64,000 bases of DNA from Gracilaria domingensis. Lineage: Eukaryota; Rhodophyta; Florideophyceae; Gracilariales; Gracilariaceae. This document shows, one piece after another, positions 3,153 to 64,000 of this stretch (positions are counted from its first letter, which is position 1; the number at the start of each line of letters is the position of its first letter). The stretch spans positions 305,763 to 369,762 of the forward strand of contig VCMS01000035.1 of NCBI GenBank assembly GCA_022539475.1. Reading direction: 5' to 3'. The position numbers and the translations under genes were made by a program. The notes beneath the pieces were generated by a model. The model was not told the origin of the DNA. It saw only the letters and a program-made list of their open reading frames with translations, and ran no database searches.

Positions 3153-4025
3153 ATGTATAACTCAGAAGTTAGAGCCCAAGAAGTAACTCCTCAGCAGCTG
3201 GCTAACGAAATATTCGAAAATGGCTACGCCGTGATTAGTGATATTGACGGTACTCTGAAAAGAGCTGGGGAGAACATTCCGGCCGAAACAGTCAAATGCA
3301 TGAAGTACATCAACGCACGCGTTGGTTTCGGAATTGCTACTGGGCGAGATATAGAGGATGCCGAGAGTTTCATGGAGCACCTGGGTGGCTACACTTTTGG
3401 CATCTCTGGAAACCAAAGCGCACGGGTTAGATTATCCAATGGTACCGAAATTGATCAGGACCTTGACAGGGAAGGCTACGAAAGATGTGCAGCCGAACTT
3501 GAGAGACTTGCACTCTCCTTAAATGAATCGCACGGACTTCACGAAGAGCGTCAACAAGCAGTTGTGAGCACTAGAAAAGACAGTGGACTCCCTAACTTCA
3601 CGTACAATGGACTGTCGAAGTGGAAAACAGAAGTTAACTCCGGTATTTCAAAAGTGTTGACATACTTTCCGAACCTGGTTGCGTACCCTCAGGATGAAAA
3701 CTGTGACATAGGGGACATTCGTTTCACGAAAAACACTGGGGCGCTAGCCTTGGTTGAAAACGACCCCCAGTTCGACACACATTTAATCGTTGCTTTCGGG
3801 AATGCTTCCAATGATGGCCCTCTATATGAAATGGCAACCCTGGCAGTTCATGTGAAGGGAGACGACCATCCAGCAGGGGTAAGATATCTTGTTGATGGGG
3901 TGGAGGACGTGCATGAGACCATCAGAAGGGTGGCAGAACTGTACGGGTACAGAAAATGCAAGTGTCAATGGTTTAGAAATGCTCTTGGAATTTGTTTCAA
4001 GTGCTACGATGCCTGTAATACTTAG
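3153..4025 (+). CDS. Trehalose-6-phosphate phosphatase-like HAD hydrolase
   Basis: 290 residues from ATG 3153; the open frame extends 26 codons upstream, but only to a GTG. HAD motif I is intact as SDIDGTL (Asp30 nucleophile, Asp32 acid/base), followed by FGIATGRD (motif II region), a GISGNQSARVR strand resembling the trehalose phosphatase cap entry, and GNASNDGPLYEM at the motif IV position, where only the last of the usual acidic residues remains. Length and motif order fit OtsB/TPP-like phosphatases; whether the substrate is trehalose-6-P is unproven given the weakened motif IV. The C-terminus ends in a Cys-rich tail (KCKCQWF... CFKCYDAC). It lies tail-to-tail with a diverged paralogue whose stop is only about 60 bases away. 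No intron is needed. Confidence 0.65.
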   Translation: MYNSEVRAQEVTPQQLANEIFENGYAVISDIDGTLKRAGENIPAETVKCMKYINARVGFGIATGRDIEDAESFMEHLGGYTFGISGNQSARVRLSNGTEIDQDLDREGYERCAAELERLALSLNESHGLHEERQQAVVSTRKDSGLPNFTYNGLSKWKTEVNSGISKVLTYFPNLVAYPQDENCDIGDIRFTKNTGALALVENDPQFDTHLIVAFGNASNDGPLYEMATLAVHVKGDDHPAGVRYLVDGVEDVHETIRRVAELYGYRKCKCQWFRNALGICFKCYDACNT

Positions 4026-4084
4026 CTAGGATATGAGATCTTAGTAATAAAAGTGTCGTATATATCTCAATACCCTTTTATGAT

Positions 4085-4993
4085 TCATGATTCATGGTGG
4101 TTTTTATCGTGCTGCTTTTCCTCGTAGCCGTACAACAGAGCCACCAGCATAATTGTCGAATGTACATCCTCCACGCTTTCGAACAGGTTGTGTACTCCAC
4201 CCGGGATACAATCTTCTTTGACGTGAACGCCGTACACGCCTACCTCATGCAACGGCCCGTCGCTCAAAGCACTTCCGAACGTCACGACGTCATCCGTATC
4301 AATAAATCTCGGTTCATTATCCACAAGATTTGCTCCTCCGCTTCCTTTTGTGTATCGCTTGTCCACAATTTCGCAACTTTTATCGCCGGGATAGATAACA
4401 AACGCATCCATCTTCTGCAACAGGTCCCCAATAGCAGAATCCACTTCTTCTCTCCACTGCCACAGTTTCTTGTACACGAAATTGGGAAGGCCACTATCAC
4501 TTCTGGTCTCCACGAACCCCTTGTCATCATCATTCACAATACCATGCCTCCTATTCAAATCCCTTGCCAGGAACAGTAGTCCGTCAACAGTGTGGTCAAG
4601 GGTGTGATCATTGAATGCACCCTTAATTTCCCTCTCGTCAGAGAAACGCAGGAAAGCTCCATGATTCGCCGAGACACCAAACTTATAGTCTCCGAGTCCT
4701 TCCATTTTCCCCTCCACGTCGCCCACATCACCCCCTGTGACAAGTCCGAAACCAACACGTTCGTCAATGAACTTCATACACTTCACAACTTCTTCTGGAA
4801 TTGACTCTCCTTCTCTTCTCAACGTTCCATCAACGGAACTTAATATACCGTAACCATTGGCATATATGAACTTAGACAAGGTATTGGGTGAAATTTCGGC
4901 CAAGTCTCTCTGTTCCTCTGCCATTTTTCCTGATACAGTTACCATACTGCCACAAGTACCGCATAGACAGCTGTATAGACTTCTCAGTTTCAT
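4085..4993 (-). CDS. Probable catalytically dead paralogue of the HAD phosphatase
   Basis: 302 residues from ATG 4993. It aligns along its length with the convergent neighbour at 3153-4025, sharing ENGY/ANGY, DGTL, IPEEVVKCMKFI, VGFG, DSGLPNF and SDGPLHE blocks. The motif I nucleophile is replaced: SSVDGTL instead of SDIDGTL (Ser53 where Asp is required, second Asp55 kept). TGRD has become TGGD, and motif IV is GSALSDGPLHE. HAD phosphatases need the first Asp, so hydrolase activity is unlikely; a regulatory or sugar-binding role is possible, as for inactive trehalose-synthesis paralogues in other eukaryotes. A Cys-containing N-terminal extension (about 24 residues) is absent from the neighbour. 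The frame is intact, which argues for constraint rather than decay. Confidence 0.65.
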   Translation of the reverse strand: MKLRSLYSCLCGTCGSMVTVSGKMAEEQRDLAEISPNTLSKFIYANGYGILSSVDGTLRREGESIPEEVVKCMKFIDERVGFGLVTGGDVGDVEGKMEGLGDYKFGVSANHGAFLRFSDEREIKGAFNDHTLDHTVDGLLFLARDLNRRHGIVNDDDKGFVETRSDSGLPNFVYKKLWQWREEVDSAIGDLLQKMDAFVIYPGDKSCEIVDKRYTKGSGGANLVDNEPRFIDTDDVVTFGSALSDGPLHEVGVYGVHVKEDCIPGGVHNLFESVEDVHSTIMLVALLYGYEEKQHDKNHHES

Positions 4994-6533: not shown

Positions 6534-6961
6534 GTTGAACAGCTATTGCAGTGAAAGGTGTATATCAACAATACGCTCGCTCTGGACGATACAAGAACGG
6601 ATGCGAGCCTTTTAAATGGCGACTTACGCTGGGCACGCCCGCTTTCGGCAGCTCCTCCCAGCGCACTGCCAGTCTCGTCCGTGTCCTGTCCGTGGCCGCT
6701 CGCACGCTGATTGTACGCTTTAGAGTCGTGGAGTTCACGCAATGATGACTCACGTGAGCAATGGTCGCGCTGTCTAATCGTGATCTTCAAATGCTTTGCA
6801 TAGTAGTCAAGAGTACACTCATTCACTTCCATGTAGAGCCTACTCCCGCAAATACACGTGGACAGCGGCGCCAACGTACCGGCGGCCGGGTGTACCGAAA
6901 TCACTGCGGGGCGGCGTGTTTTGGGAGATCCCGGGAAGGCGCCGGAATGTGGCCAGAACGT
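6534..6961. other. Gap between ParB-like gene and satellite
   Basis: About 430 bases upstream of the minus-strand ParB-like gene. Several short overlapping open frames occur on both strands and none resembles a protein family. The stretch presumably holds that gene's promoter and the end of the adjacent transposable element. Confidence 0.4.
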
Positions 6962-7857
6962 GCCCGCGGGCGGGAGGGGTCGGTCGTGTTAGGGTACCTA
7001 CCCTAACACGACCGGACCCCCCCGCCCGCGGGCATAAAATCGCACATTTTTCAAAAAATCGTCCAAAACGTGCCCGCGGGCGGGGGGGTCCGGTCGTGTT
7101 AGGGTAGCTACCCTAACACGACCGACCCCCCCCCGCCCGCGGGCATAAAATCGCACATTTTAAAATCGCAAATTTTTCAAAAAATCGTCCAAAACGTGCC
7201 CGCGGGCGGGGGGGTCCGGTCGTGTTAGGGTACCTACCCTAACACGACCGACCCCCCCCGCCCGCGGGCATAAAATCACACATTTTTCAAAAAATCGTCC
7301 AAAACGTGCCCGCGGGCGGGGTGGTCCGGTCGTGTTAGGGTAGGTACCCTAACACGACCGACCCCCCCCCCGCCCACGGGCATAAAATCGCACATTTTAA
7401 AATCGCAAATTTTTCAAAAAAACGTCCAGAACGTGCCCGCGGGCGGAGGGGGTCGGTCGTGTTAGGGTAGCTACCCTAACACGACCGACCCCCCCCGCCC
7501 GCGGGCATAAAATCGCACCTTTTTCAAAAAATCGTCCAAAACGTGCCCGCGGGCGGGGTGGTCCGGTCCTGTTAGGGTAGGTACCCTAACACGACCGACC
7601 CCCCCCCCGCCCGCGGGCATAAAATCGCACATTTTAAAATCGCAAATTTTTCAAAAAAACGTCCAGAACGTGCCCGCGGGCGGAGGGGGTCGGTCGTGTT
7701 AGGGTAGCTACCCTAACACGACCGACCCCCCCCGCCCGCGGGCATAAAATCGCACCTTTTTCAAAAAATCGTCCAAAACGTGCCCGCGGGCGGGGGGGGT
7801 CCGGTCGTGTTAGGGTAGCTACCCTAACACGACCGACCCCCCCCCCCCCCCCCCCCC
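6962..7857. repeat. Palindromic satellite: eight GC-rich hairpins in 110/126-bp alternation
   Basis: Eight near-perfect palindromes of about 70 bp start at 6962, 7072, 7198, 7308, 7435, 7545, 7672 and 7782. Each is built as GCCCGCGGGCGGG, a G run, GGTCGTGTTAGGGTA, then the mirror image. Start-to-start distances alternate 110, 126, 110, 127, 110, 127, 110, so the real repeating unit is a dimer of about 237 bp. The longer spacers carry an extra 'attttaaaatcgcaaat'. Spacers are A/T-rich. Each arm contains TTAGGG and its complement around a central TAGCTA-type core. The last copy degenerates into a run of about 26 C. The array lies directly at the 3' end of the transposase gene and supplies its last codons. 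Confidence 0.9.
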
Positions 7858-10795
7858 TTTCGGCAGTGATTTCGCTGCACACGCCGTGCACATATATCAA
7901 ACTAGAGAAAACTAGCGCTTCACACCCACTTGATCCGCGACTTTTGGCACAATACGCGACCTTTGCAATAGCTCCGAATCGCGACGTGGCCGACATCAGA
8001 GCGACTACCTGGGCAACCCAAGTCTCTGAATCTTCTCCGCTTACCAATACAGTAGAAAACCTTGGCTTTCTACTGGGACCAAATGCTGGAGAAGCGAAGA
8101 CATGTTGGATGATGGGGTATTTGGGTCGTCCCAGCTTAAGTGCCTTAGAAGACGAATCGAAGTGTTCAAGAGTCGGAACGAAACCGCCTTTCACGAGGGC
8201 CGAATTCACCAGAGTTATCCTTGTCTTTTCTGGGAAGTATGTAATAGAGTGCTCATCCAGTGTTTCTTTCACGAGACTGAGGAAAGGAGGAAGGGCCTGT
8301 TCACCAATTTGATCAAGAATCGACCTTGTGTCCGTACTTGAGAACATTTCTCTAACAGCAGTCCATGTTTTTGAACTGGACATACTTGAAACACAATGTT
8401 GAAGAGCTCGTAAAGTGAAAGAACGCCCTCTCATTGCAAACCGAGGAAGCTGTGTGGAAGTTCCTGGTAAACCTGGATTACGCTGGTAAGGAGTATTGCC
8501 ATTCCATTGCTTTCTAACATGTCCGTGCTCAATGGAGCGAATAGTCTCCTCCACAGCCGTTGCTGTTCTTCTGGACGTCTTTTTGTAGTGTCTTTTAAAT
8601 AGCAGGTGTGCATGTTCGTATATGCCTGCGTCATAGTACTTGATACTTCCCAGACGGCGAATATCGTCCACGAGATGATCGAGAAGATGAAACTTCAGAG
8701 TTCCCAGTCTGGAGGGATGAAAATCCGCCAGAGTCTTTGTTGCGGAACGCTTGAAGGCTTCAATCTCCGAACTAAGACACAGGAGAGAGCTTTCAGTCCA
8801 ATACGGGTCACGATTGTATCTGAATAAGGTCGAGAGCAAGTCCGAGTACTGAGAGAAAACGGTTGTGATTGGGGCAACGTCCTGTTCTCCACAGCATATG
8901 TCAAAGAATGCTCCTATGAAGGGAAAGACCATGTCAAGTGCTTTGTAGTTTTTGGCCTCCAGCATTCCACGGAGACCGTCTTTCGTGAAGATACCATTCA
9001 AAGATTTGCCTTTCTCCTGCGTGGAGAAATCGATATGTAAACCTTTGGCAGGAGAATCGCGTTCTATGGCAGCTAGAATTGCGTTTGCATGGTTGAGGAG
9101 TTGGGTGCGTATCGTTCGAAATGAACGCGATGCAGATGTTCCTATTGTGGTGCACAGGGTGTCTGACTGCAGTCTCTCGATTGTGGCCGTTTTTATCAAC
9201 TTTGAGATGCCGAGATGCAAGTTGTGTAATGGTTCGAATGAGAACAGACTGTATGGAGACAATCCCGGGATCATTCCAAGGCTTACGGAAGTTTCGAGGA
9301 ACGAAGGAATGAGAGATATGGAATTTGAACGCATCAGAGTATCCGCTTGAGATCTCCTCTCCCTCGCACGACGTGGACGTCTTTCCGCCTCGTCTTTTTG
9401 TGCATGTTGCAAGATAGCTGTGTATGTCTTTCGGATGCTTTTCGTGTGTTTCTGAGAACGTCCGTTGAATGAGGTGGGAATAGGACTGCATAAAGATGAG
9501 CGAGGGGCTTTGCATCTATGACACGGGCTTTCCGTTTTGGTCCCATGAAGAATGGACAGAATGTCCTTAGCCTCAGGAATGTCCGCACAATAACTTGCAA
9601 GCAGAGGATGGCACACTCGACTTAGTTTGTCTTCGCCGATGAACTGAAAACCTTTCTGCGTGAGATTTAGAATGGGCTCCAGGACTTGACGAAGAGATTC
9701 TTGAAGGATTTGCATCCTGGACTCGCGTAGAGACTTGCTAGAAACGAATGGCGTTGCGTCTGCTTCAGATGCGGAAACCTCGATCAGTGTGGTAGGGAAG
9801 TATGCCACTACTGTGAGGTCGTCACGGATACACTTACGGCGAAGCTCGTCGGAGAAGTTGAGAAATATGAGGTGAAGAGGATAGGCGGTAACCGATGTTT
9901 GCTTTAGAGTTGTTGAAGACTTATCGGTGTATACCTGCAGAAGACCTACGAAAGATTCACTGTAACTTATTTCTTGGGAGTACCACACTATTCTACTATC
10001 CAAAGAGCCCATGACCATTTCCTTAAGTTTTGAGGTGGCGTCTCTTGCGAGAGAGCCGGACATGGAGTGAGATATTTTCGTGGAGTGGGTCTGATGTACA
10101 GGGTGGAAGAATGTGTTTTCGTTGTTAGCCAACTGGAGCTGTTTCACAAGTGTCTGAACGATGTCTCTCATGTAGAGGGTGGCGCTGAACTTACATCCTT
10201 CTGGCGAGACAGTTCTGCGATTGAAACCGTCCTTTGAAGCGTATGGTTCGAAAATGGCCTTCTTCAGTTCTGTACAGCGCTTGGAACTTGTTATGGTCTC
10301 GTTGAATCGCTTTTGCGAGAATCGCGGGTCCCGAAGTAGCCCAATTAGCTCGTCAGCCTCACGATGACCAAGGTTGGAAGCTACTGAAGCCAGACAAACC
10401 GTGAGATAATCCATATGCAAATCACCGAGGGCCTCCTCAGAAGGCACTGGGCGGGAACTGCTTCCGTGTTCTCGCTCTAATGACGCGGGAGCCGGGGAAG
10501 GAGAAACACAATGCGAAGTGTCCGGAATGGGAGGGGCGCACGGAGTGGGGTCGACGATGTCCTCGGACACTGGAGGCTCGGGAAGGCGACAAGGGGCAGT
10601 GACCGTTTCGGAAGATGCGGGCGCGGGTGCGGAAAGCTTGAGACGCTTGCTTCTCCGAATGGGCCGGCTATTGTCGTCTTCCAGCGCTGCTTTCAGACGA
10701 AACGGGCAATGGTTGACATGCTGTTGAAGGGATAAGACTCCTCGGCGAGTAACGAAGGGGCACCCACGCTTCTTATGTGTACAGTAGTAGACCAT
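7634..10795 (-). CDS. Plavaka/CMC-type transposase, full-length open frame
   Basis: About 1,053 residues from ATG 10795 (the open frame extends 28 codons further up). The N-terminus has a zinc-finger-like arrangement, YCTHKKRGCPF...QQHVNHC, as in Plavaka/KDZ-type elements. Further on come LASYCADIPEAK and ESPCHRCKAP (CxxC), FEPLHNLHLGISKLIK, and YEHAHLLFKRHYKKTSRR, matching the order of conserved blocks in the CMC (CACTA/Mirage/Chapaev)-related Plavaka transposases of fungi and algae. Unlike almost every other transposon gene in this window, there is no stop or frameshift, so the copy is young. The last about 70 residues (Gly, Arg, Pro-rich) are translated from the palindromic satellite and are unlikely to be part of the conserved protein. 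Terminal inverted repeats were not identified. Confidence 0.75.
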   Translation of the reverse strand: MVYYCTHKKRGCPFVTRRGVLSLQQHVNHCPFRLKAALEDDNSRPIRRSKRLKLSAPAPASSETVTAPCRLPEPPVSEDIVDPTPCAPPIPDTSHCVSPSPAPASLEREHGSSSRPVPSEEALGDLHMDYLTVCLASVASNLGHREADELIGLLRDPRFSQKRFNETITSSKRCTELKKAIFEPYASKDGFNRRTVSPEGCKFSATLYMRDIVQTLVKQLQLANNENTFFHPVHQTHSTKISHSMSGSLARDATSKLKEMVMGSLDSRIVWYSQEISYSESFVGLLQVYTDKSSTTLKQTSVTAYPLHLIFLNFSDELRRKCIRDDLTVVAYFPTTLIEVSASEADATPFVSSKSLRESRMQILQESLRQVLEPILNLTQKGFQFIGEDKLSRVCHPLLASYCADIPEAKDILSILHGTKTESPCHRCKAPRSSLCSPIPTSFNGRSQKHTKSIRKTYTAILQHAQKDEAERRPRRARERRSQADTLMRSNSISLIPSFLETSVSLGMIPGLSPYSLFSFEPLHNLHLGISKLIKTATIERLQSDTLCTTIGTSASRSFRTIRTQLLNHANAILAAIERDSPAKGLHIDFSTQEKGKSLNGIFTKDGLRGMLEAKNYKALDMVFPFIGAFFDICCGEQDVAPITTVFSQYSDLLSTLFRYNRDPYWTESSLLCLSSEIEAFKRSATKTLADFHPSRLGTLKFHLLDHLVDDIRRLGSIKYYDAGIYEHAHLLFKRHYKKTSRRTATAVEETIRSIEHGHVRKQWNGNTPYQRNPGLPGTSTQLPRFAMRGRSFTLRALQHCVSSMSSSKTWTAVREMFSSTDTRSILDQIGEQALPPFLSLVKETLDEHSITYFPEKTRITLVNSALVKGGFVPTLEHFDSSSKALKLGRPKYPIIQHVFASPAFGPSRKPRFSTVLVSGEDSETWVAQVVALMSATSRFGAIAKVAYCAKSRGSSGCEALVFSSLIYVHGVCSEITAERGGGGGGVGRVRVATLTRPDPPRPRARFGRFFEKGAILCPRAGGVGRVRVATLTRPTPSARGHVLDVFLKNLRF

Positions 10796-14249: not shown

Positions 14250-15423
14250 AAATCTACGTTTAAGTCAAATCTTATTTGTTCCAAATCTTTGGAGAATACC
14301 TTAACAGAAACCATCGTCATTGAATCATCATGCGGCTGTCAATGAAATTGGTGCGTCTCAATATAATGTAAGCACATTTTTTAGGAATCTAATTTTCTCA
14401 AAATATCACACTCATGGAAATGTCAGTGAAACAAAAACCTACTTATTGTTCAATGACGTTGGTCACATTAGCTTACTACACTAGCCATCTTGCCTGCAAG
14501 TCTACTGAAAACTCTTTCAGTTTTCCCTTAAGAAGTTTTGCGTGGGAATAGGATGGAACAGGTTTACATTTGTCACATATCGACGGTAAGGGTTTGCTTC
14601 TTAAACTATTGCCTGACTGTCATTCCATTGCAGACACGGAGTGGTAAACAAGAAGGTAATATCTTGTGTCAACCTTTACTTGGAGCTTTTGCGTGAAGGT
14701 TTTTATATGTAAACAAAGCAAAAGTTCTAGTACTTATGGCCCCCTACTATTTCTGTTAGCGTCAGTTGACTTGCTAAATGCACTTTTATTCTGTGACGAA
14801 ACAATCCCTTTAACAGATGTCACCTTGTTCTGTCTGTTGTTTAAGTGGGCGCTTAAGCGCTCTTAGAATAAATCGATTTAGAAAGAGTGGAGCTCCCGAA
14901 GGAGTTTCTGAGATTTTGAACTGATCTCTGCAAGGCATGAACTCACCCATCCTTGCCACTGCACATCTGGTTAGTGTTGAGGACGCGAAGAAGAATATAT
15001 AGAGAAGAAGATGAGCTAGAGAGCTCTTTACTCGAGCTAATTATTGAATTTGCGCCAAGGCGGCTAAACTTTTCAAATATTTTGGTGGCGTCATTTTGGC
15101 CTCATATGGGGCCAAAGAGTTGGGCGGGTAGACACTTTTAGCGGCCAAAACGACTGTCATACCCTGTAGTGAAAAATCTCAAATTTGGAGTTCAGTTTTT
15201 GACGAGTTTAGTCCAAACTAATCTCAAAGCTTGCAATGTAAGCCACTTCTAAAGGGATAAGAATAAGTACACTACTCCTCCTACTTTAATATATGGCAAA
15301 TGAATTAGATGCATATGGGTCGCTTCTACTCAACTAGTTTGTGGAGCTTATTCTTCGACTAACCATATGATTGTCTGCCTTACCAGACAATCTAATCTTC
15401 GCTCGCTTCAAAAGTGGCGAAAG
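14250..15423. other. No gene recognised; probable transposon remnant
   Basis: About 1.2 kb of AT-rich sequence between the piggyBac-like relic and the hairpin satellite. Small hairpins occur (GGGCGCTTAAGCGCTC near 14848; GATTGTCTG...CAGACAATC near 15370). Short open frames only. Confidence 0.4.
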
Positions 15424-16345
15424 TGCAAATGTACTGCATGACCCAGTACTTTTGCACATCTGCTGCTTTTTGTTGATTACGAGGTGGTATGCCCCGCTCG
15501 TGCTGTGATATGTGTATGACCCATCTTCAAACTGCCCGGCTCGTCCGGCAGTCTGACGATGGTTCACGGGGTTAGTGACAAAGATGCAAAATTGCTGTCT
15601 GGCCCAGCACTTTTATACCTTTGCTACATGTGGCAGAGCAAGAGCTTGCTCGACCAATTCGTGCTCGGGATATGATGCGAGCCATCTCCAGACTGCTCGG
15701 CTCGTCCGACAGTCAGACGGTGGCTCGCAGAGATGGTGGCAAGGTGCAAACGTGCTGGCTCGCCCAGCACTTTTGCACCTTCACCACTTTAGGCAGAGCA
15801 CGAGCTGGCTTGCGCAGCTCGTGCTCAGGATATGTTGAAGGCATCGTTAGAGAGCGCGGCTCGTCCGGCAGAGTGGCGGTGGCTCGCAGGGATAATGACA
15901 AAGGTACAAAAGTGCTGGTTCGCCCAACACTTTCGCCCCTCCACCGATTTTGGTATAGCACGAGCTGGCTCGCCCATCTCGGGCTCAGAATATGATGTGA
16001 GCCATCACCAGACTACCGGGCTCATCCAGCAGTCTGACGGTGGCTTGCCGGGTTAGTGGCAAAGTTAGAAAAATGCTGGCTCGCCCAGCACTTTTGCACC
16101 TCCGCCACTTTGGTCAGAGCACGAGCTGGCTTGCCCAGCTCGTGCTTTGATATATGTGTGAGCCAACGTCAGACTGCCCGGTTCTTCCAGCAGTCTGATG
16201 ATGGCTCGCAGGGTTAGTGGCAAAGGTGCCAAAGTGCTGGCTCCCCCAGCAATTTTGCACTTTCGCTACTTGTGGCATAGCTTGAGCTGGCTTGTTCAGC
16301 TCATGCTCTGATATGTCTATATGCCATCGCCAGAGTGCCTGGGCT
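15424..16345. repeat. 161-bp tandem satellite, each unit with three hairpins
   Basis: About 5.8 units with a 160-162 bp period (equivalent points near 15547, 15708, 15868, 16030 and 16192). Each unit has three inverted repeats in fixed order: GTGCAAAAGTGCTGG/CCCAGCACTTTTGCAC, then AGCACGAGCTGG/CAGCTCGTGCT, then a CCATC..CAGACTGCC/GGCAGTCTGACGGTGG stem with a GGCTCGTCC-type loop. Units differ by 10-20 percent, yet complementary changes often keep the stems paired. Open frames crossing it on both strands look like by-products of the repeat. Confidence 0.9.
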
Positions 16346-17416
16346 GGTTGACATTCGCCCAGTGGCTTCAATTTTTCTTGCAGAGAACAATCATTTTCGA
16401 CTGCCTCGTCTGGATCCGGGTGTCGCGACCGGTATAAGCTCATCTCATCTATGAACTCGAGAGCAATTGGCGAACGTTTGTTAGAGTGGAACTCAAGACG
16501 TAACATTTTACTTAGAATGGGACTCACACATCTGCCGAGTACTTTCCAAATTCCCTTCCTCCCTGACAAATCGTAGCAAGGCACTCATGGAAACTCTCGG
16601 TTTCGAGAACAAGCTGCGTTTCTTAAAATATAAAATGCCAAACTCCCAGTCCCCATCTCGTCCGTCCATCTCAATCTTTAGGAATATTAGTCCATGCTCT
16701 GAAACGAACTGTGCTATATCCTTAAACCTATAGAAAACTGCTTTCTCACTGCTTCGATTCCAATGTTTATCCTTCTAGTTTCGAACGATTGTTCGCCGCA
16801 TAGAAGCCCTTAAAAGCAATCGAACGGGCTTAAAGTTCATCGTTTTATCTCTAAATCGCCATAATCGTACAATCTCTTCCAATGTAGGCGGCAATTTTAG
16901 AATGAATTTCATAGCTGCAACAGAGCTTTTGAAGCACTCTGCATCTTATGAACAAACGTACCAAATCCTTGCCCACATCAAAAGCAGTTTGAAAAGTTTT
17001 CTTCTGCTTATGAGAATCTGCCTAGTGGTTAAATTCATGGTGATAACTGCTAACTTCTGATTCTGGAATACATTTCTTTGGCGTGCCCCTATTGAACCTC
17101 TCTTCATAATGACACTGCTCAGTCATGATCTGTCTTCGACGAGTCGACGGGAAGTTCATATACCAGATCACGCTGCTACGACGCACTGTGACCACGTAGC
17201 GACCACAATAGAAGTCTTGCACCGCGGAAGGTCAGTCGGCAACGCGGCCATTGATCTTGTTTCGTTTCATCGAGGACACCATTAATGCCCACGGAAATGT
17301 GGGAAAAACCGTTCACAGTTCAATATAATAAATATAAAATCAGGCTTTTTTGTTCGTTAAACATATGGCGGTTTATATTGAACTACCCAAAAACGCTGAA
17401 ACATAATAGAACTAAG
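16346..17416. other. Unassigned stretch after the hairpin satellite
   Basis: A minus-strand open frame (16346-16584, continuing into the satellite) begins with a protein-like segment containing HPDPDEAVENDCSLQEKL, but I recognise no family and its 3' end is satellite. A short inverted pair GTTCAATATA/TATATTGAAC lies at about 17317 and 17374. Nothing else is supported. Confidence 0.3.
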
Positions 17417-63237: not shown

Positions 63238-64000
63238 GTAAGTGTTAGTTATTGATGCAAACACAGGAAACAAGTCTCAAAAAAGGAAGGGGTTCTTCTC
63301 ACTATCGGCAGTTTGGTTCTTTGCAGCAGTACCATGTCGTCGTCGTGTCCGGCTTTGTTATTCCTCGCATGGACATATTCGAGAACGACAGATAGTAGAG
63401 AGCGAGAGACTGTGCGCTAGAGCGGATTTGAAAACGAAGATTAAAAGCGGAGCAGGAAGCTAGATCAAGACCGACAGAGATAATCTGCGATGCGCAGGCC
63501 AGCTGCATGAGCATCACGTTTATCAAGGGTGGGGAAAATGACATTTCTAGATCGACACGAGGTTGTACATGCAAAATGGAAACACGTCGACCTTGCGAGT
63601 TCGCTGTGCAGAATAAGAAGTGAATTCCTTACCACCATTCGTCTCCTGCAATAGGTTTTCGTGAGATCTGTAAGCTTTCGATCGTTTTGACTATTAGCGT
63701 GATTCATTCTTCTACGTGTACCTCCACATCTTGTACCCTTGGTTTGTTTGAACCTGTTTGCTCTAATAAGAGCCACAGTAGAAGAATCATATATTGTAGA
63801 GTCCAGCAAAATTCATAAACAAAAATTTTAAAACAGCTAGGAGATGGTTAGAATACCTATTTGACTTTAGAATGTCACATGGGAGATACCATAAAGGTTG
63901 AATGAACCAGATCTAATTTTGGGCAAGTTCGATACAATATAAACCTGGTCGCTTACAAACACGCCCTCGATAGCCTACTATCTGGGTCTAACAAAACAGG

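Follow-up and report, generated by a model that had tools for sequence, protein, structure and literature searches.

Hairpin-bearing 161-bp repeats of the red alga Gracilaria domingensis belong to a Crypton-like transposon family

A short tandem array in the red alga Gracilaria domingensis is built of 161-bp units, each of which can fold into three different hairpins. This raises the question of what such an array is, and whether its folds are maintained because something recognizes them. The array lies on contig C35 within the 64,000 nucleotides (contig positions 305763-369762) that were analysed as a whole (hereafter the window), and its features are listed in Table 1. Tandem Repeats Finder reports it at 15491-16315 (5.1 copies, 75% matches), while nhmmer resolves five near-full units at 15473-16275 and partial units at 15369-15469 and 16277-16364. 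The three dyads occupy unit positions 1-35 (A), 44-95 (B) and 102-156 (C); self-complementarity therefore extends over most of each unit. In the majority consensus of the five window units, 57 of 59 pairs could be called, and these comprise 55 Watson-Crick and 2 G-U pairs. The folding energy of 15424-16345 is -444.1 kcal/mol, compared with -340.3 +/- 6.9 kcal/mol in 20 dinucleotide shuffles (z -15.1). The presence of three hairpins per unit in a fixed order, the starting point of the original prediction, is thus real.

Table 1. Positions of the array, its hairpins and the element parts in the window and at locus L009
Feature	Position	Strand	Basis or remark
Array of 161-bp units, about 6	window 15369-16364	+	Tandem Repeats Finder, nhmmer with the unit, alignment A1
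Hairpin A, best-scoring window unit	window 16115-16149	.	15-bp consensus stem, tip GGCTTGCCC; alignment A1 and structure
Hairpin B, best-scoring window unit	window 16158-16209	.	21 pairs counted, tip GGCTCGTCC in most units
Hairpin C, best-scoring window unit	window 16216-16270	.	23 pairs, internal 2x2 loop, tip GGCTCGCCC in most units
Right-flank remnant (L009 7701-7822, outside the right array)	window 15139-15260	-	blastn, 82.8% over 122 bp
ORF2 3' part, residues 99-312 of 312, two pieces, broken	window 16511-17141	-	tblastn, blastn
RING-finger ORF	L009 1758-2396	-	Pfam zf-C3HC4, E 7.5e-9
Left array	L009 2565-3236		
ORF2	L009 3420-4355	-	
YR	L009 4509-5828	+	
Right array	L009 6127-7381		inverted orientation
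Right end of element	L009 7941		

The array as part of a mobile element

The array had been described as a satellite of its own; it is instead a fragment of a Crypton-like recombinase transposon. When the host genome (77.9 Mb, 680 contigs) was searched with the array at the DNA level, at least 60 matches were obtained, many of them as inverted pairs, and in six copies on five contigs (C1, C7, C29 twice, C70 and C315) the two arrays of a pair are about 3 kb apart. Comparison of these loci defined an intact element of about 7.96 kb, which shows that the 161-bp arrays are components of a family of Crypton-like DNA transposons whose enzyme is likely to be a tyrosine recombinase (YR). The order is CATTA, left end, a RING-protein gene, left array, the divergent genes ORF2 and YR, the inverted right array, and the right end with CATTA. 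At L009 both arrays are internal to the element. A diverged and broken copy, L023, keeps the same order of RING gene, array, ORF2, YR and array.

The ends were fixed from several insertions. On the left, CATTA ends all five flanks found (C1, C7, the outer C29 copy, C70 and the C29 tandem junction), and the search string used there began after CATTA, while the string for the right end contained it. The sequence that follows differs among all five right ends (C1, C29 twice, C70 and C315); in one case it is the left end of the next copy. CATTA is thus a 5-bp direct repeat, within a range of 4-6 bp, at both ends and common to different insertions; the left flank on C70, AATCCAACATTA, is also similar to the right end of the element itself. 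Inspected by eye, the extreme ends have nothing in common beyond a short AGAACCGT motif, and they carry neither terminal inverted repeats nor long direct repeats, the inverted arrays being internal. On C29 two copies stand head to tail, 7964 bp apart, and on C70 about 19.6 kb separate the two ends, implying an insertion. In the C7 copy YR is broken and the usual right end is missing; in the C315 copy YR is interrupted by a stop, and the usual left end is absent.

A YR match lies within about 5 kb of a 161-bp array on 6 of 11 contigs, or 7 if a weak 61-residue fragment on C219 is included. Where no strong YR match is near, the arrays still border on other parts of the element, namely the right flank on C501, C2 and C465 and ORF2 with the RING gene on C219, and a free-standing satellite is rejected for this reason.

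The assignment of YR is likely, because weak integrase matches and sequence motifs are taken together with the CATTA junctions. Two PHROG integrase families each match four of the five aligned YR members (best E 1.7e-4). Pfam gives a weak Phage_integrase match in one of the five (E 0.14) and DUF6708 in one of the five (E 0.016), no NCBIfam recombinase family matches YR, and the PDB holds no credible relatives of YR or ORF2. In the alignment of five members, RYDE is found in four and GHS in four, NYC is invariant, and L035 lacks the R and the H; the GHSxKRG box has K-R where R is usual. We take RYDE, GHSxKRG and NYC to be the catalytic motifs of a tyrosine recombinase. A search of the alga's own genome with YR returned 59 matches, many of them fragments. 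A viral origin of YR was considered and dropped, as one run of the YR alignment against viral contigs yielded 600 pattern stretches and no relative. ORF2 has no convincing Pfam family match, and QGGGTG is common to its five aligned sequences (L009 and L033-L036). A GCR1_C domain, suspected by eye in ORF2, was found neither there nor in YR.

According to excerpts of Kojima and Jurka (2011; PMC3212892), Cryptons carry short direct repeats of 4, 5 or 6 bp at their ends and have been reported from animals, fungi and stramenopiles. The element resembles them in its likely tyrosine recombinase, in the lack of terminal inverted repeats, in its 5-bp end repeat, and in its head-to-tail copies, which are consistent with a circular intermediate. 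It differs in its two-sided hairpin arrays, its divergent ORF2, its RING gene and the missing GCR1_C match. The main text of that paper does not contain the words hairpin, palindrom or red alga. Cryptons are known, and hairpin arrays in them are without description among the literature matches listed; by title and start of abstract, the open-licence matches listed include no red-algal Crypton and no Crypton hairpin array. In the excerpted Repbase table of 2015, the one red alga listed is Chondrus crispus, for which a bare count of 1181 entries is given.

The copy in the window is truncated: it consists of the right flank, the array and the 3' part of ORF2, without YR, for which tblastn found no match in the window. 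The array and the right flank are also spanned by one longer alignment (L009 6659-7822 to window 16342-15139, 68%). The ORF2 piece at 16511-17141 matches at 66% over 162 aa and 58% over 62 aa by tblastn and, as DNA, at 80% to L009 3343-4058 by blastn; element homology ends near 17141. The intact ORF2 adjoins the left array, while the window joins the right flank to the ORF2 side of the array; from this one remnant we infer that recombination between the inverted arrays turned the core around before the copy was truncated. Elsewhere in the window, 40341-41067 matches L009 706-1423 at 87% identity. That stretch of L009 is the GC-rich left portion of the element, which contains 236-bp repeats, and the window piece is either a separate element fragment or a shared insertion.

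Pairing within and between families

The original prediction held that differences between units often preserve pairing. To test this, we started from the 96 matches in the fetched loci that cover 140 unit positions or more; removal of identical units and of one weak reverse-strand match left 51 distinct ones (5 in the window and 46 at nine other loci), over which 59 pairs were counted. Paired cells make up 82.5% of 3001, compared with 82.0 +/- 0.2% after shuffling of the 3' letters (8 of 500 shuffles are at least as high). Pairs changed on both sides number 13 (17.0 +/- 2.9 in shuffles), double-changed cells 31 (27.7 +/- 4.4), and the covariation score is 0.115 (0.113). RNAalifold predicts just 5 pairs on the alignment. 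Column conservation is 0.863 in stems and 0.854 in loops, with spacers lower at 0.765, and the mispairs comprise 202 G-U and 170 A-C cells (52 and 49 distinct types). Thus neither covariation nor a clear G-U excess was found among the 51 units, and covariation is rejected as support inside this family. The claim that unit differences preserve pairing is not supported here; substitutions fall in stems about as often as in loops, which the prediction itself had named as its refutation, and the two strings quoted as an example are the two arms of one single hairpin.

The consensus sequences tell of the ancestor. Among called consensus pairs, the Watson-Crick share is 55/56 in the main family, 55/57 in the window, 40/43 in L023, 48/54 in L015 with L017, 44/52 in L022 and 39/50 in L021. 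The 161-bp copies are decaying, uncompensated, from a near-perfect palindromic ancestor, as covariation, RNAalifold, conservation and mispair counts are all flat.

Related families were sampled in seven stretches that surround other YR genes (L032-L038) and in five pieces of array (L039-L043). YR stands with a divergent ORF2 in five of the seven stretches (L033-L037); in L038 both genes are on one strand, and in L032 the ORF2 match is partial and 3 kb away. A 154-bp unit with several hairpins occurs in L033, L036, L037 and L040, with a diverged relative in L034 and L039, and a 90-bp unit with two hairpins, one of whose stems of 16 bp is perfect in several units, occurs in L038, L041, L042 and L043. 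No array was seen in L035. The association with YR recurs: 154-bp arrays are within 5 kb of a YR match on 6 of 7 contigs (on C332 by a 33-residue fragment), the distance on C18 being 13.5 kb, and 90-bp arrays are within 5 kb of one on 4 of 4 contigs, of which counts C251 and C249 are not independent, because the array queries came from YR loci.

Three further features of these loci were noted. On C26 (L037, continuing to C26:34667), 154-bp arrays recur about every 1.44 kb beside the YR gene, as a higher-order tandem. The 154-bp elements at L033 7694 and L036 7372 diverge right after ...ACCATTGA, resembling the CATTA junction of the 161-bp family. Between two hairpin arrays of L038, at 3948-4596, there are about three 227-bp repeats with a tRNA-like stretch, whose GGTTCGAAC box is presumably a tRNA-like feature; ARAGORN found no tRNA in it.

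Between diverged sister arrays the pairing behaves differently from that inside the 161-bp family. For the 154-bp family, 20 chosen sequences and 40 pairs were used, and the first hairpin (14 pairs) was omitted because L034 does not align there. The 21 double-changed cells compare with 6.7 +/- 2.1 in shuffles (0 of 500 as high) and with 2-11 in slid structures, the 8 double-changed pairs with 5.5 +/- 1.5 (43 of 500), and the covariation score of 0.140 with 0.090 (0 of 500); many of the cells fall in one lineage (L034 with L039), so that the independent events are few. For the 90-bp family (35 sequences, 28 pairs), there are 17 double-changed cells, compared with 8.8 +/- 2.4 in shuffles (1 of 500) and 4-9 in slid structures, and a score of 0.098 compared with 0.076 (0 of 500); only 4 pairs are double-changed (4.3 in shuffles), and 15 of the 17 cells come from just two pairs. 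In both families these comparisons are to be read with the caveat that related sequences can beat such shuffles without structure. The results support that pairing is maintained between sister families, by selection or by arm-to-arm conversion. The mispairs give no clear sign of RNA, with G-U and A-C cells at 64:46 in one sister alignment and 30:37 in the other (17 and 14 types).

A shared tip on different stems

What the families have in common is the tip. It reads GGCTYGYCC in the 161-bp family, GGCACAGCC in the 154-bp family and GGCACCGCC in the 90-bp family. Perfect hairpins were counted as those with a stem of at least 7 bp and a loop of 3-5; GGCnCnnCC, a motif picked after being seen, is at the tip of 35 of the 40 in the sampled arrays of the three tip-sharing families and of none of the 60 in the sampled background (17 from the window, leaving out the array and the palindromic satellite at 6900-7900, and 43 from pieces of other loci). 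The counts per array range from 11/11 (L043) to 1/3 (L034), 1/2 (window) and 0/1 (L041 with L042). In eight hairpins of our choosing, the tips are identical at 192 of 252 positions (76%), compared with 80 of 298 (27%, near chance) for the 5' arms. L032 is without the shared tip (0 of 2 perfect hairpins); between its genes it has clusters of GTGAACGTTCAC palindromes. A tree built from eight of the genome's YR proteins, rooted at the midpoint only, separates L032 with L035 from the six tip-sharing ones.

All 28 exact tips of the L009 element lie inside its arrays, and the window has four more exact tips outside arrays. The strand of the tips varies: they are inverted in L009 (11 plus, 17 minus), on one strand in 14 of 14 cases in L033 and in 12 of 13 in L034. 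On the YR side of L033 the tips mostly follow a 38-bp spacing, and 7 of 8 are without paired arms; the tip at 2562 is paired. The part of the original prediction that invoked selection on structure therefore fares unevenly: it fails within the 161-bp units, which show no covariation, and gains at greater depth, where sister families have unrelated stems, a nearly shared tip and an excess of double-changed cells.

What the arrays may do

Related elements in the same alga keep nearly the same tip on different stems, and the hairpins thus probably serve the element; our preferred reading is that they are candidate recognition sites, probably read as DNA. We propose that each tip is a recognition site for a protein encoded by the element, and that the arrays cluster these sites and confer specificity for the element itself; judging from sequence comparison, we give this a probability of about 0.55. 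The tip GGCTYGYCC, or its counterpart in the 154- or 90-bp family, would be recognized by the ORF2 or the YR protein, and the arrays would gather about 28 candidate sites around this gene pair. Such clustering could make the protein specific for its own element, and it might pair or regulate the two sides. The self-complementary arms may show the tip as a cruciform or hairpin, or may allow a dimer to bind, and the arm sequence would be free provided that the arms pair. The tip is our candidate protein site, with the arms helping to present it, because it is constant and, on the YR side of L033, mostly lacks paired arms.

The palindromes may also be neutral, a reading that we consider rather unlikely. 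Here, fold-back replication or conversion from arm to arm would make and repair the hairpins, unequal exchange would multiply them, and their structure would not be selected. The uncompensated decay of the 161-bp copies and the roughly equal numbers of G-U and A-C mispairs agree with it, and arm-to-arm conversion would also yield the double changes in the sister arrays; what it does not predict is that arrays recur beside the recombinase in several families, with the tip kept while the arms are replaced.

Somewhat less probable still is a function as RNA: both genes point outward to the arrays, and the hairpins would then be structured 3' untranslated regions, terminators or small-RNA precursors. 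The L009 arrays begin about 180 bp past the end of the ORF2 frame and 300 bp past that of YR, the fold of the window array is extreme, sister arrays have compensatory cells, and one sister alignment has more G-U than A-C cells. The two other alignments, the 161-bp one included, lack a clear G-U bias, however, and the strand of the tip relative to the genes varies by family. The window has 0 Rfam matches above the gathering threshold, and a structured RNA of a known family was rejected. Of the two targets named in the original prediction, RNA thus loses ground, with G-U close to A-C in two of three alignments, and DNA recognized by a protein fits better.

We regard as doubtful, and below both of these, that a eukaryotic transposon recognizes the folded hairpins through its recombinase or ORF2, as an independent counterpart of attC, and that they mark, pair or invert the gene core. 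If a protein does read the fold, this would be an unusual case of fold-based DNA recognition by a eukaryotic mobile element. The least probable reading is integron-like, in which YR would recognize a folded single strand or an extruded cruciform and the arrays would be the recombination substrates: a likely tyrosine recombinase gene beside palindrome arrays, with stems free and fold and tip kept between families, has a precedent in IntI and attC (excerpts of PMC2727003), but the element ends join at CATTA and not at hairpins, the 161-bp units stand head to tail without gene cassettes, and tip orientation varies between families. As far as those excerpts go, the likeness to attC arrays lies in palindromic sites with little sequence conservation, a conserved fold and an adjoining tyrosine recombinase. 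The differences are that the present tip is conserved rather than variable, that the mobile unit ends at CATTA, and that there are no cassettes; between 161-bp units, no gene-sized cassette was found, the spacers being a few bases.

For sites recognized by an element-encoded protein, Galileo offers the closest working parallel. In excerpts of PMC3688188, this element of the P superfamily has multiple binding sites for the THAP domain of its transposase, in tandem repeats of its long inverted arms; for Tetris, excerpts describe satellite arrays that were built from such repeats. The shared feature is long inverted arms with internal repetition. Galileo differs in that its arrays are terminal, while here they are internal, the sites are hairpins and the enzyme is a likely tyrosine recombinase. 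A foldback or Galileo-type element was rejected, as the arrays do not reach the element ends and Pfam found no transposase domain in the five ORFs scanned. A link to red-algal plasmids was likewise set aside, the main text of PMC4814812 being without hairpin, recombinase or integrase.

An apparent satellite becomes part of a lineage of red-algal recombinase transposons, with an unusual pattern of evolution in which the stems are replaced between families while most of the nine-base tip stays. One genome holds several families, with 161-, 154- and 90-bp units, and the proposal is therefore directly testable by binding assays.

The surroundings include other repeats. A second palindromic satellite lies at window 6953-7850; its unit is 237 bp long (110 bp in another reading), and its stems, of 15-21 bp, are perfect and enclose loops of 4 bases. 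From 46723 to the window end at 64000, head-to-tail repeats of a 6.06-kb segment follow one another with 99.7-99.9% identity. A 480-aa protein is encoded in each of the two 6.06-kb repeats listed, and its HGDxHxxN motif we take to be like that of phosphotransferase-type kinases. In keeping with a red-algal host, the phycobilisome linker family PF00427 has 14 matches on nine contigs of the genome, four of them on C680.
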